DNA of 40,566 nucleotides from Candidatus Peribacteria bacterium (GTDB lineage Bacteria > Patescibacteriota > Gracilibacteria > Peribacterales > Peribacteraceae). The stretch lies in contig CALRCM010000005.1 in assembly GCA_943354555.1 (NCBI GenBank), forward strand, positions 1-40,566, given 5' to 3'. The translations under genes and the position numbers were made by a program. Within the stretch, counting starts at the first letter, position 1, and every line of letters begins with the position of its first letter. A model generated the notes under the pieces. That model saw only the letters and a list, made by a program, of their open reading frames with translations, did no database searches and was not told the DNA's origin. Shown here piece by piece: positions 15,864 through 19,595 of this stretch.

Positions 15864-16847
15864 TTATTTCATCATTCTCCGCGCTCTCTCCATAAGTCTT
15901 TTGAGTACATCCTTTGATGCGACCGCGGCGCTCTGTACCGGTGTCGCCGGTTCCGGCACTGCATCAATGACTCTTCCTCCGTAGCGATTCGGCACAAGCT
16001 GCCCTGTGCGCATGTCGGTGATATTGCGCAGGTGCATCTTTCCGATATACGGATCGGAATTCATCGGCGTGTAGTAGAGGCAGTTTTCGAAGTAGTAGTG
16101 CGTCACCTGACTGTGGCGGGTACTTCCTGCCCGCTTGATCGGTTCGCCTCCGTGCAGCAGCGTCGCTGCCCAGATCACCGCCTGTCCTTTTTTCAGTGTA
16201 ACAATGTGTTTCTTGAGTCCTACAGCTTGCACATAGGCTTCCATACAATTTTCGTAGCGTGCGTAGGATTCCCGTCCGGAAGAAAGTCCCAGATCATGAA
16301 AGTCCCACGCCGGCATACGGTGACTTCCGGGGTACACATGGAGCGGGCCGGAGTCTTCGCCGATATCTTCCAGAGCGATCCATACGCCGCACATGAATCC
16401 GTGTGGAACAGAGTGAAAGTGGACGGTGTCGCTGTGGGTATGTTGCTGTGTTCCCACAGGGAAGTTCAGCGTCTGAAAGGGGATCGGATCGCGCTGGTAG
16501 AAGAGCCGCAGCACGCGGTCGATTGCGGGCAGAGTCGCGAGCATTTTTACGTCGTTGTCACTCTTCCATGCATCTTGTACACGCCCTATACCGGCGTACT
16601 TCGGTGCAAGAGTGTTGATGATGCGTGTACAGACAGCATCCAGATCCGCAATTTCCGTATCGATGATCGCATACCCGTCCCTCGCAAAAGCTTCGATCAG
16701 TGTACGGTCCGCTACAGGAAGATTGGCTTCATTGAGTAGCGTCGGAAAAAACGGCGTCATGAACCACGGCATGTTCATCTGCCGGAGACTTGCTTCCGTA
16801 GAGTCGGGACTTGCCATGATCGCCGCTGCAGTTCGCTGGATGTCCAT
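15864..16847 (-). CDS. Phytanoyl-CoA dioxygenase (PhyH) family Fe(II)/2-oxoglutarate oxygenase
   Basis: 327 aa with the double-stranded beta-helix of PhyH enzymes. The iron triad is visible as H138-S-D140 (QQHTHSDTVHF) and H232 (WAATLLHGGEPI), with R244 for 2-oxoglutarate; GVWIALEDIGEDSGPLHVYPGSH is a PhyH signature. Substrate unknown; bacterial relatives hydroxylate small molecules, lipids or natural products. The frame is open upstream to 17174, but that extra N-terminus is low-complexity antisense to the next gene, so ATG 16847 is preferred (ATG 16817 is also possible). It is divergent from the small membrane gene, with a gap of only 27 bp, so the two promoters must overlap. Confidence 0.85.
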   Translation of the reverse strand: MDIQRTAAAIMASPDSTEASLRQMNMPWFMTPFFPTLLNEANLPVADRTLIEAFARDGYAIIDTEIADLDAVCTRIINTLAPKYAGIGRVQDAWKSDNDVKMLATLPAIDRVLRLFYQRDPIPFQTLNFPVGTQQHTHSDTVHFHSVPHGFMCGVWIALEDIGEDSGPLHVYPGSHRMPAWDFHDLGLSSGRESYARYENCMEAYVQAVGLKKHIVTLKKGQAVIWAATLLHGGEPIKRAGSTRHSQVTHYYFENCLYYTPMNSDPYIGKMHLRNITDMRTGQLVPNRYGGRVIDAVPEPATPVQSAAVASKDVLKRLMERARRMMK

Positions 16848-16862
16848 CGGGTGATTGGAGAG

Positions 16863-16868
16863 TAGGAT
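16863..16868 (+). promoter_or_regulatory. -10 box TAGGAT, 6 nt before ATG 16875
   Basis: TAGGAT then acacct then ATG; the leaderless arrangement. Confidence 0.45.
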
Positions 16869-16874
16869 ACACCT

Positions 16875-17123
16875 ATGTCTTACGCTTTCCTTACGATCGC
16901 CGCCGCCGGCTACACGATTCTCATCGGAGCGATCATCCTGAATATCCTCGCCACTACTCTTGGGATTGTGACGTGGTACGGATTTCTGGAGAGCGCCGCG
17001 GCACACGGGTTTTTCGGTGCCATACGTCAGTCGGGCATCATCTCTGTTGTATATCTCTTTGCTCTCTATCCGCTGCTTCTCGGATGGATGGCGTGGGGAG
17101 TGATGGTTTGGGTAGCCAAATAA
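16875..17123 (+). CDS. Small two-helix membrane protein, unrecognised
   Basis: 82 aa with two long hydrophobic segments, about 5-35 (ILIGAIILNILATTLGIVTW) and about 54-82 (VVYLFALYPLLLGWMAWGVM), joined by a short polar loop (ESAAAHGFFGAIRQSG). The helices are rich in Trp and Tyr, suggesting a full membrane span each. No catalytic motif and no family recognised. The start is supported by TAGGAT 6 nt upstream. Divergent from the PhyH-family gene and upstream of the structured RNA at 17175, which has its own promoter beginning 17 bp after this stop. Confidence 0.75.
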   Translation: MSYAFLTIAAAGYTILIGAIILNILATTLGIVTWYGFLESAAAHGFFGAIRQSGIISVVYLFALYPLLLGWMAWGVMVWVAK

Positions 17124-17140
17124 GCCGGATTGACATACAT

Positions 17141-17168
17141 TTGACAATATGTGAAAATAATATATAAT
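17141..17168 (+). promoter_or_regulatory. Strong promoter TTGACA-16-TATAAT
   Basis: Both hexamers match the consensus exactly (17141-17146 and 17163-17168) with a 16-bp AT-rich spacer; start expected near 17175. Nothing downstream on this strand is coding. Confidence 0.85.
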
Positions 17169-17174
17169 ACTCAA

Positions 17175-17417
17175 TAGTTCCTTTTCGCATGGGCTTCATG
17201 CTCACAATGGGCTTCGAAAGTCTCCCGGCTTTCTCACCGCGGCACCTGCCGCACTCTGTAGCGGGAGATGGCGGAACATCTTTTTGTTCGCGCACACTGT
17301 ATGGCACCACACAGTGCGAAGATTCCTGTGAAGTTCAGGAAAAGGGATAGGACTCGCTTGCCTCTCAAAAACTTTGTGCAAGCACTATGTCCCCCAGCCG
17401 CTTCTCGGCTGGGTTTC
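17175..17417 (+). ncRNA. Candidate structured non-coding RNA of about 240 nt, unassigned
   Basis: From the consensus promoter to a GC-rich terminator the DNA has no convincing reading frame but is dense in helices: GCATG/CATGC (17187-17191/17197-17201) inside CTTTTC/GAAAG; CTCCCG/CGGGAG (17222-17227/17262-17267) enclosing GCGGCA/TGCCGC; GCGGAACA/TGTTCGC (17271-17278/17285-17291); CACTGT/ACAGTG (17295-17300/17311-17316); TTCCTG/CAGGAA (17323-17328/17336-17341); GGGATA/TGTCCC (17345-17350/17389-17394) enclosing GCTTGC/GCAAGC. The motifs of RNase P, tmRNA and SRP RNA that I know are absent, and 6S RNA should be one long hairpin. A lineage-specific RNA or a very divergent known one are both possible. 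Confidence 0.7.
17394..17417 (+). terminator. Terminator of the structured RNA
   Basis: CCCAGCCG (17394-17401), loop CTTCT, CGGCTGGG (17407-17414), then TTT. The T run is short, but the stem is perfect and it faces a convergent gene ending at 17435. Confidence 0.65.
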
Positions 17418-17434
17418 CCTATGCAATCAATAAG

Positions 17435-17650
17435 CTATGTATCAAGAATTTCAATGCCAAGTTCTTTAATCGCACTCCGAACATTCGCTATATCCGCTGT
17501 ATGTATCTGCTTAATGGTTGCGTGAAAGATCCCATTAGGTTGTTCATCATGGATGCACAGAGCTCTCCAGCCTGCCGCTTGCACAAGTTGTGGATAGATA
17601 TCTCCGTCCCAATGCTCCGGTAATTTTCCGGTGAAGCTATATGAAGACAT
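17435..17650 (-). CDS. 71-aa protein of unknown function from a leaderless mRNA
   Basis: Unrecognised 71-aa soluble protein. The sequence is of normal composition (WDGDIYPQLVQAAGWRAL; IHTADIANVRSAIKELGIEIL), with mixed alpha and beta character and no membrane segment. The reason to accept it is its promoter: TTGACA (17685-17680), a 17-bp spacer and TATAAA (17662-17657), with only six bases between the -10 and ATG 17650, so the RNA should start at or next to the start codon. It converges on the structured RNA at 17175, 18 bp apart, and diverges from the TMEM175 gene. Confidence 0.7.
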   Translation of the reverse strand: MSSYSFTGKLPEHWDGDIYPQLVQAAGWRALCIHDEQPNGIFHATIKQIHTADIANVRSAIKELGIEILDT

Positions 17651-17656
17651 GTTGAT

Positions 17657-17685
17657 TTTATAGCATTTTATATGATATATGTCAA
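17657..17685 (-). promoter_or_regulatory. Promoter TTGACA-17-TATAAA for the 71-aa gene
   Basis: Consensus -35, ideal 17-bp spacer, 5/6 -10, six bases to the ATG: the clearest leaderless promoter in the window. Confidence 0.85.
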
Positions 17686-17694
17686 TTTCAGGGG

Positions 17695-17704
17695 ATGGTA
17701 CAAT
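17695..17704 (+). promoter_or_regulatory. Extended -10 TGgTACAAT, 6 nt before ATG 17711
   Basis: TACAAT (17699-17704) with TG one base upstream, then tttctc and ATG. Confidence 0.6.
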
Positions 17705-17710
17705 TTTCTC

Positions 17711-18286
17711 ATGAAGACCACTCGCCTCGAGGCATTCAGTGACGGCGTCATCGCCATATTCATCACCGTTATGGTTCTTGCATTCAAGATTCCTGAAGGT
17801 GACGATATCGCAGCGCTCGGACCGACGTTGCCGCTGTTTCTCGCCTACGTCCTAAGCTTCGTGTACCTCGCCATCTACTGGAACAACCATCATCACCTGA
17901 TGCAGGTTACCGATCACGTCGATGGACGCATTCTCTGGGCAAACATGCATCTCCTCTTCTGGCTTTCCCTTGTGCCGTTTGCAACTGCTTGGATGGCTCA
18001 AACACACTTCGCCATGATTCCGACAGCATTGTATGGCGTGATCCTCCTCCTCGCTGCGCTCGGGTATTCCTTTCTGGTCATGGCGATCACCGCTCACGGT
18101 GACGCCAATCATCTCTTGAGAAAAGCCATAGGGCGTGACTACAAAGGAAAGATCTCCCTCGTGATCTATGTCCTTGCCGTTGCGCTCACGGGTGTTCACC
18201 AGTGGATCTCTCTTAGTCTGTACGCACTCGTCGCCATTATTTGGCTCGTTCCTGATCGCAGAATCGAGAGAGTGCTGGGGCATTGA
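17711..18286 (+). CDS. TMEM175-family (DUF1211) potassium channel
   Basis: 191-aa membrane protein with six hydrophobic helices. The family signature RLEAFSDGVIAIFIT (R5, F9, S10, D11) opens the first helix, which lines the ion path in TMEM175-type potassium channels; NNHHHLM and LFWLSLVPFATAWM match the rest of the family. One six-helix repeat per chain implies a homotetramer, as in other bacterial members. The start at ATG 17711 begins the family domain directly and lies 6 nt after TACAAT; an upstream ATG at 17672 would lie within the promoter. The stop is TGA followed at once by TAG. Confidence 0.9.
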   Translation: MKTTRLEAFSDGVIAIFITVMVLAFKIPEGDDIAALGPTLPLFLAYVLSFVYLAIYWNNHHHLMQVTDHVDGRILWANMHLLFWLSLVPFATAWMAQTHFAMIPTALYGVILLLAALGYSFLVMAITAHGDANHLLRKAIGRDYKGKISLVIYVLAVALTGVHQWISLSLYALVAIIWLVPDRRIERVLGH

Positions 18287-18584
18287 TAGTTGGATCAGAG
18301 AGGTCGAAGGCCACGCATCTCGGCTCATCCTCACTCCGTTCGGATTCGGTCGAGGCACTCGACCTCTGTTTCTCTTACAACAGAGAGGGCCGTAGGCCAC
18401 GAGCGAGCGTAGCGAGTCGAGTGGTAGACCTCATCCAAACTCATTGGAACATCTTGATACCCTACATGGAGCAAATAGCTGCACTCATGCAGGAAAAGCT
18501 CAATGCGGCTGATCTTCTCAAGGTGAGGACAAGAGCCGCTCTTCCTGCTCTTGCTACGCTCGGAGAATAGAACACAGGAGATTG
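18287..18584. other. Gap with repeats and one doubtful 34-aa frame
   Basis: Contents: GAGGTCGAAGGCCACG-like repeat sequence (18299 on), a hairpin CTCTGTT/AACAGAG near 18365-18386, the tRNA-flank repeat at 18388-18430, and an open frame from ATG 18466 to 18570 (34 aa, MEQIAALMQEKLNAADLLKV...). The short frame is helical and continuous with repeat-derived codons upstream; it may be a gene remnant. I do not accept it as a gene. Confidence 0.4.
18388..18430. repeat. tRNA-flank repeat, copy 1
   Basis: GGCCGTAGGCCACGAGCGAG, then CGTAGCGAGTCGAGTGGTAGACC. Its CCAC...GTGG part is an imperfect palindrome. The second copy abuts the 3' end of tRNA-Glu (19596-19636); here no tRNA can be seen beside it. 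Confidence 0.65.
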
Positions 18585-18593
18585 TGGTATGAT
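18585..18593 (+). promoter_or_regulatory. Extended -10 TGGTATGAT of the lipoprotein leader RNA
   Basis: TATGAT (18588-18593) with extended TG; seven bases later is G18600, the first base of the P1 helix of the leader RNA. No clear -35. Confidence 0.65.
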
Positions 18594-18599
18594 TTTGCC

Positions 18600-18733
18600 G
18601 ACCCGAACAATGAGTGGACTGCCATGTCCACGTTTATCTGATCAACGCAAAAAGGGGCATCCATGCCTCGGTCAAGCGTTGATGTAGGGAAACCTACTCA
18701 ATTGTTTGGGTCATCCGAGCGGGGGTGCCCCTT
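18600..18733 (+). ncRNA. Candidate riboswitch-like leader: four-way junction with long pseudoknot
   Basis: Four helices fit almost without linkers. P1: 18600-18613 with 18698-18712 (GACCCGAACAATGA against TCAATTGTTTGGGTC, one G-U and one bulge). P2: GTGGAC/GTCCAC (18614-18619/18626-18631). P3: ATCAACGC/GCGTTGAT (18641-18648/18676-18683). P4: GTAGG-GAAA-CCTAC (18684-18697), with a GNRA loop. The large P3 loop then pairs with the 3' tail: AAGGGGCA with TGCCCCTT (18652-18659/18726-18733) and CTCGG with CCGAG (18667-18671/18715-18719). The predicted RNA start coincides with P1, and the lipoprotein ATG is 32 nt past the tail. It matches no riboswitch class I know. Confidence 0.7.
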
Positions 18734-18764
18734 CTTGGTTACTCATTCCTTTCCCCCTCCACTC

Positions 18765-19184
18765 ATGACCAGATGGCCCCTCTACCCTCTTATGGTGCTC
18801 TGTGCCGTATCGCTGGCCGCATGTACGACGAAGCAAAAAGAGTCTGACGATAGCGAAGAGACAACGCTTGAAACGTATTCCGTCAAAGTCGCGCAGGAAG
18901 GCGGCGGTGATTCCGAGTATTCCACGATGGAAGTGTCAGGCTTGAACGAGGGCGACGAACGCGAAGCGGACGAATTTGTCTCTGTCGACTTCGGATGGCC
19001 CGAAGAATACGTGGATGCCAATCCCCAGAAGAACGTCATGTGGGTGCAATGTATGGAGGGGTATCGCATCAGTAGCTGCGTGAGCAAGACAAGTATGCTC
19101 ACTCCCACAAGCAACAATACGTGCGGCCTCATCATCGAAGACCAGCCGAAGAACATCGTGAGCTTCGACTGCGAGAAACGATGA
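18765..19184 (+). CDS. Small lipoprotein with four C-terminal cysteines, unrecognised
   Basis: 139 aa. A basic start and hydrophobic stretch end in the lipobox SLAAC, with lipidated Cys 20, so the mature protein is anchored to the outer face of the membrane. An acidic, Ser/Glu/Asp-rich linker (about 22-75) precedes a small domain with four cysteines (WVQCMEG, SSCVSK, NTCGLI, SFDCEK), probably two disulfides. No family recognised. ATG 18765 gives the exact lipoprotein signal; earlier in-frame codons would translate the structured leader. The leader before the ATG is pyrimidine-rich (tttccccctccactc). It is the only gene here with a long structured 5' leader, so its expression is likely controlled by that RNA. 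Confidence 0.75.
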   Translation: MTRWPLYPLMVLCAVSLAACTTKQKESDDSEETTLETYSVKVAQEGGGDSEYSTMEVSGLNEGDEREADEFVSVDFGWPEEYVDANPQKNVMWVQCMEGYRISSCVSKTSMLTPTSNNTCGLIIEDQPKNIVSFDCEKR

Positions 19185-19251
19185 AAAGGACGAATTGATG
19201 ATGCCAAGATCGGATGATTATTGATTTGATCAAATTACCACAATTTTGTTC

Positions 19252-19512
19252 TTATCCCTTCGTGGGATGTTTCCCCGAAGCCAGATTTTCTTTCTTCATC
19301 CTATTCCATGGTTTCACTTGCGCCTCTCGTCTACGCGCTTCCACAAGTGTTTGGTATTCTTCGGAATATAGAATACGAACAGGTCTTCGGTGTTGGGTAT
19401 AAATAGCGCCCGTTCCTTCATTGTGTCTTGCCTCTCGCGCTTTCAGATCATTACATGAGCCGGTATAGAGCGAACCGTCTGCACAGCGAGCGAGGTAAAA
19501 GTAATGAGACAT
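19252..19512 (-). CDS. Single-domain GIY-YIG endonuclease-like protein
   Basis: 86-aa stand-alone GIY-YIG domain of the UPF0213/YhbQ type: YFYLARCADGSLYTGSC (first and second motif strands), then LKAREARHNEG with the catalytic-type Arg, YTQHRRPVRILYSEEY and the EA..RE...K Glu-containing helix. Such small nucleases are widespread with poorly known roles; the usual GxTND is GSCND here. ATG 19512 is chosen because it opens the domain and TATACT (19527-19522) lies 9 nt upstream; the frame is open farther up but there runs into repeat and tRNA-flank sequence. It lies directly downstream of tRNA-Glu on the same strand. A second GIY-YIG domain in the window belongs to UvrC. Confidence 0.85.
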   Translation of the reverse strand: MSHYFYLARCADGSLYTGSCNDLKAREARHNEGTGAIYTQHRRPVRILYSEEYQTLVEARRREAQVKPWNRMKKENLASGKHPTKG

Positions 19513-19521
19513 TGGTTTGTG

Positions 19522-19527
19522 AGTATA
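19522..19527 (-). promoter_or_regulatory. -10 box TATACT, 9 nt before ATG 19512
   Basis: TATACT on the minus strand, predicting a leader of about 2-3 nt for the GIY-YIG gene. Confidence 0.5.
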
Positions 19528-19595
19528 GCCCCTCGGTTCGCTAGCGCTCACTCGGGGCACTCGTCTCGGCGTGATGCAGAAACTCAAATCGAAGA

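Follow-up and report, generated by a model that had tools for sequence, protein, structure and literature searches.

The intergenic stretch at positions 17141-17420 of the window, i.e., of the whole 40,566-nt stretch of DNA analyzed here from a tiny, lake-dwelling member of Candidatus Peribacteria (genome G000 below), is, as judged from its sequence, a stand-alone small RNA gene with its own transcription unit. This RNA, which is present in a single copy in its genome, is best explained as a regulatory RNA that probably acts in trans and presents a conserved loop to a partner. It looks like a young, lineage-specific, and fast-evolving RNA, real and new but of a familiar kind, that of the small RNAs. 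The noncoding RNAs of candidate-phyla bacteria have hardly been charted; the syntenic pair described below, with its compensatory changes, allows a first covariance model to be built and offers RNA biology a clean anchor in a lineage that is uncultured. The features of the RNA are collected in Table 1.

Table 1. Predicted features of the small RNA gene (window positions)
Feature	Position	Strand	Basis or remark
Sigma-70-type promoter TTGACA-16-TATAAT, 12/12 consensus	17141..17168	+	Genome-wide count; G004 counterpart
Stand-alone structured noncoding RNA, predicted transcript of ~240 nt	17176..17418	+	Fold z -4.7; syntenic homologue
P1 closing stem, 5' strand	17177..17186	+	Pairs with 17339-17348
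P1 closing stem, 3' strand	17339..17348	+	Pairs with 17177-17186
P2 stem	5' strand 17190..17199, pairing with 17328-17337	+	Counterpart present in G004
Multiloop hairpin	17200-17212	+	Fold
Variable module: two multiloop hairpins, 17220-17269 and 17271-17293	17220..17293	+	No clear G004 counterpart
Hairpin CACUGU-AUGGCACCAC-ACAGUG, 10-nt loop	17295..17316	+	Loop identical in G004; two compensatory pair changes
3' hairpin GCUUG(C)/(G)CAAGC, large loop	17356..17383 (17350-17392 overall)	+	Two pairs changed on both sides
Intrinsic-terminator-like hairpin, weak U-tract	17393..17420	+	Two compensatory pair changes in G004

Transcription Unit and Flanking Genes

The -35 box of the promoter (17141-17146) and its -10 box (17163-17168) are separated by a 16-nt spacer. 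The initial annotation had ranked this promoter as the best of the window, and it is indeed the sole 12/12 match within these 40 kb; a count over the entire genome (1,164,754 bases) gave just four such promoters with spacers of 16-18, the one of the RNA included. Such a promoter suggests that the RNA would be strongly transcribed and abundant. At the other end, the GC-rich terminator hairpin, CCCAGCCG-CTTCT-CGGCTGGG (17393-17413), is followed by the tail TTTCCCT, which is a poor U-tract. The terminator initially reported at this place stands as far as its hairpin is concerned, with a pairing kept in the congener G004, but its U-tract is weak and a standard simple scan made no terminator call. 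On these sequence grounds, a promoter and a terminator hairpin of its own, both conserved in G004, would make the locus an independent transcription unit of the kind expected for a trans-acting small RNA.

The two flanking genes are those described at the outset, namely a small membrane gene upstream (an 82-aa ORF, DUF7672, 16875-17123) and a convergent 71-aa ORF downstream (17435-17650), the latter without any family. Since this downstream ORF is convergent, the RNA is not its leader; in G004, the lipoprotein-like gene located downstream of the RNA likewise reads towards it. DUF7672, for its part, was found in only one of 40 genomes, its own, and is absent from the G004 site, which indicates that the RNA is not tied to it.

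Predicted Fold of the RNA

The minimum-energy fold of 17170-17420 reaches -98.2 kcal/mol and contains at least eight helices, as had been counted in the initial annotation over about 240 nt. Dinucleotide-shuffled versions of the same stretch gave -75.7 +/- 4.75 kcal/mol, and none of the 200 was as good (z -4.7), while the part of the RNA up to 17350 taken alone still has a z-score of -4.65. In a z-score scan of the whole 40 kb, no more than three other stretches (18501, 35751, and 4751) reached a strength comparable to that of the RNA, and in the last two of them perfect single hairpins predominate. As expected, the opposite strand has a fold of about the same quality; the strand was assigned because of the order of the promoter and the terminator, both of which are conserved.

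A Syntenic Homologue with Compensatory Changes

Synteny enabled a homologue to be found in one congener, G004 (Candidatus Peribacteria bacterium isolate K_Offshore_120m_m1_009), at L039:11292-11140(-), or G004:C3:41139-41291 in genome coordinates, on contig VGKY01000003. The conserved blocks VTT-PhyH and tRNA-Glu-PH-uvrC keep their order in this genome and lie close together, the counterpart of the RNA being located within the ~800 bases that separate PhyH from the tRNA side. It displays, in this order, a promoter, the stems P1 and P2, a variable hairpin that is short, the hairpin whose AUGGCACCAC loop is identical, the 3' hairpin, and the terminator hairpin. More precisely, the promoter (TTTACA-16-TATGAT) occupies the matching position and P1 starts 8 nt after the -10 box, compared to 9 nt in the window, while a single short hairpin stands where the window RNA has its 17220-17293 module. 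What stays constant is the outer frame together with the last hairpin, and what varies is the multiloop. The AUGGCACCAC loop is identical at 10 of 10 positions and constitutes the longest identical stretch, which makes it the best candidate contact site; besides, the two genomes have the bases CUC and ACUU..UG of the 3' hairpin loop in common.

When 304 kb of DNA from relatives was searched with R3, a covariance model for which only the window sequence (17295-17421) was used, the G004 locus scored 46.1 bits (E 5.7e-10) and the next-best match had an E of 0.5; the G004 match covers only the 3' half of the homologue there. The model R2, in which the middle hairpin is offset by one column, matched G004 with an E of 1.4e-8; the model R1 was derived from both sequences and necessarily matches each of them. 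In the three hairpins compared between the window and G004, all 19 pairs are kept and six of them are changed on both sides. For this count, the alignment had been made gapless by removing a few unpaired bases and one unpaired window stretch. Pairing falls to 26-45% once the partners are shifted against each other by one to three columns. As for P1, the eight compared pairs are all kept, one having changed on both sides and three others on a single side. This amounts to seven pairs changed on both sides, with none of the compared pairs broken. This covariation amounts to a single evolutionary comparison, between the only two sequences known, albeit a strong one. Synteny and covariation, by which the initial annotation had proposed to check its reading among relatives, were therefore both found in G004.

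In this context, it could be argued that the stretch is a long bidirectional terminator or an untranslated region between convergent genes rather than an RNA gene, given that it sits upstream of a convergent ORF, that its hairpins lie 3' of DUF7672, and that both strands fold equally well. This is hardly credible in view of the 12/12 promoter that the RNA has for itself and whose position is conserved in G004, of the invariant loop and the compensatory pairs located far from the terminator hairpin, and of the existence of a homologue without DUF7672.

Distribution in the Genus and Beyond

A search of 144 genomes with R1, under strict filters that may lose weak matches, retrieved only the genome of the window and G004, which leaves the three remaining congeners and 139 additional relatives without a detected copy. 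Conservation in close relatives, on which the initial reading had been made to depend, therefore holds for one of four congeners. The weak matches (E 0.4 to 5) that R1 gave in five more genomes were rejected, as they resemble coding sequence or chance. In the same line, BLAST of the RNA against 59 relatives gave the locus itself and otherwise only chance matches, and a loop-based pattern run over 74 genomes of the family found only G004, its gap limit excluding the copy of the window. A scan of 84,980 species with a pattern combining the conserved loop and the 3' loop yielded one true match, again G004; of 22 matches of the pattern in genome contigs, the stem was present in L245 only. Finally, 2.9 million viral contigs contained no structured match, their pattern matches being due to chance.

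At the corresponding site of the congener G003, a search with filters off revealed no diverged copy, and an unrelated ORF takes the place of the RNA, while the contigs of G001 and G002 end in other ORFs at this site, the one of G001 being a serine recombinase fragment. The presence of other ORFs in G001-G003 shows that the spot beside tRNA-Glu is plastic. The stretch from PhyH to tRNA-Glu(CUC) is a variable spot of the genus in terms of length as well, with 2.7 kb in the window (16847-19541) and 0.8 kb in G004.

A further possibility would be that the RNA is carried by a mobile or variable island next to tRNA-Glu and works for this element instead of the host cell, for example as an accessory RNA of integration or immunity. 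The variability of the tRNA-Glu(CUC)-PhyH stretch, with its large serine recombinase fragment in G001 and unrelated ORFs in G002 and G003, and the patchy presence of the RNA go in this direction. This reading is nevertheless doubtful, since both carriers have the RNA at the same place, on the PhyH side, since no recombinase or transposase is adjacent to the window RNA, and since the viral contigs delivered no structured match.

Comparison with Known RNA Families

No Rfam 15 family matches 17141-17420, even at E values up to 5, and the whole window contains only a tRNA at gathering thresholds; the region of the G004 homologue is equally devoid of Rfam matches. The absence of a known family, as first proposed, is thereby upheld, as is the absence of recognizable tmRNA, RNase P RNA, and SRP RNA at this locus. 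Within the searches made in the genome (about 740 kb of 1.16 Mb for cmscan), the only RNAs recognized are tRNA, 16S rRNA, and RNase P RNA. The latter is of class A and lies at G000:C32:5284-5693 (165.8 bits); as one such gene is expected per genome, an RNase P RNA identity was rejected for the window RNA.

The size of the window RNA is in the range of the large bacterial form of SRP RNA (RF00169/RF01854), but it is devoid of the domain IV motif, and its class has no detectable Ffh. Indeed, the Ffh M-domain (PF02978) was detected in none of the 59 genomes of the class, the own genome included, whereas the 14 controls were all positive. An SRP RNA identity was therefore rejected, neither RF00169 nor RF01854 having a match in the genome; RF00169 was absent from the five genomes of the class tested, and RF01854 from 40. 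SRP subunits are reported as missing in many candidate-phyla bacteria (PMC8080830).

With 6S RNA (RF00013), the window RNA shares a promoter of the abundant type, a long closing stem, and a similar length; however, 6S RNA is a rod with a central bubble, whereas the window RNA is a branched multiloop with a patchy occurrence in the genus. A 6S identity was rejected on the folds of both homologues, which are branched multiloops without long rod or wide central bubble; the 6S model had no match in the genome either, a result of limited power since only 4 of 14 controls exceeded the cut-off. As to tmRNA, ARAGORN found none in the window, and the RNA has neither an Rfam match nor tRNA-like ends. 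ARAGORN also reported no tmRNA gene in the genome as a whole, which is 93% complete (L260-L349 and the window).

Were the locus a housekeeping RNA, be it 6S, SRP, tmRNA, or RNase P RNA, that has diverged beyond recognition by Rfam, a strong promoter and a size such as those seen would be expected, and 6S RNA, SRP RNA, and tmRNA are all three unrecognized in the genome. Such an identity is still very improbable: RNase P RNA is encoded elsewhere, the class is without detectable Ffh, neither fold resembles 6S RNA, the ends are not those of a tmRNA, and the RNA is undetected in three of the five genomes of the genus, besides the 139 further relatives. From the first interpretation of the locus as a housekeeping or regulatory RNA of this lineage, the stand-alone structured RNA outside known families is thus retained, a housekeeping role appears unlikely, and a regulatory role would be the best reading.

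Proposed Function and Candidate Partners

In the proposed mechanism, the strong sigma-70-type promoter would drive the synthesis of a transcript of ~240 nt, the 5' end of which would fold into a long closing stem (P1-P2) enclosing a multiloop of hairpins, followed by a further hairpin and then by the intrinsic terminator. This armored fold would yield a stable and abundant molecule, acting in trans as a regulatory RNA and presenting the invariant AUGGCACCAC loop, together with the partly conserved 3' loop (CUC...ACUU..UG), to its partner. The latter would most likely be an RNA-binding protein, sequestered or scaffolded by the RNA, and less likely a small number of mRNAs with which the loop would pair. 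Several traits are those of bacterial trans-acting small RNAs, i.e., a sigma-70-type promoter and a terminator hairpin of its own, a length in the range of 150-250 nt, a strong fold, an intergenic location, and a patchy distribution. Unlike many of these, however, the RNA has no sequence or model match, its 5' end is buried in a stem, no target was found, and its genome contains no Hfq that could be found by similarity.

The seeds of base-pairing small RNAs are often conserved while the remainder diverges. An antisense-type small RNA, in which the AUGGCACCAC loop or the 3' loop would pair with the translation starts of target mRNAs, would accordingly fit the identity of the loop at 10 of 10 positions while the rest of the molecule diverged. 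If the loop paired with mRNAs, its complement would be expected to recur at the same genes. The occurrences of GUGGUGCCAU elsewhere, five in G000 and one in G004, are nonetheless not shared between the two genomes, and all of them lie inside or antisense to long open frames; for the complete 10-nt loop, no target conserved in both was found. In addition, over 674 orthologous candidate start regions, the duplex energy of neither loop beats that of shuffled loops; as this calculation was based on mechanical ORFs and on ~55% of the genome of G004, it speaks only weakly against base-pairing. Considering also that no Hfq was found and that the organism scarcely uses Shine-Dalgarno sites, the usual target, base-pairing keeps a modest share of the probability. 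Since it gained no support and Hfq was not found, a protein-binding regulatory RNA is favored, this preference, like the trans action, the expression level, and the type of partner, being inferred.

Among RNA-binding proteins, a CsrA homologue is encoded at L288:1006-1197 (+) on contig C28 of G000 (PF02599, E 2.5e-21). The window RNA resembles CsrB/RsmY-type RNAs in its multiple hairpins, its similar size, and this CsrA homologue in the genome, but differs from them in that GGA is neither significantly enriched nor exposed in loops. More precisely, five GGA triplets are seen for 2.9 expected (p 0.16), and all five are paired with a probability of at least 0.73, none being within an unpaired loop. 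A CsrB-like sponge of CsrA is therefore unsupported, and CsrA, albeit present, is not an obvious partner.

Going one step further, the RNA could be the founding member of a new class, namely an abundant protein-binding scaffold RNA in a class lacking SRP and with Hfq undetected, for which the AUGGCACCAC loop would be the docking site and the multiloop hairpins would be exchangeable, a speculation to which only a slim chance is given. The syntenic pair also makes it possible to test how a small RNA might exert control in a lineage that scarcely has Shine-Dalgarno sites, lacks SRP, and contains no detectable Hfq.

Additional Observations

The 3' end of the 16S rRNA of this organism (L260, minus strand, about 1-80; also L323) reads GGAUGGAACAUUUCCUU and lacks the anti-Shine-Dalgarno core CCUCC, and GGAG is found in no more than about 4% of the candidate start regions. 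Peribacter riflensis is listed among the organisms without this core (PMC10783764).

A second strongly folded candidate, either an RNA or a leader, lies at 18599-18745 (+) of the window, with a z-score of about -4.9. It has no Rfam match and no homologue among the loci searched, and the AUGGCA/UGCCAU loop-loop match between the RNA and this candidate at 18.6 kb was dismissed as one of many chance 6-mers. Its closing stem, GACCCGAACAAU/AUUGUUUGGGUC, surrounds three hairpins, and the candidate is located just upstream of a predicted lipoprotein, with a probable ATG at 18768.
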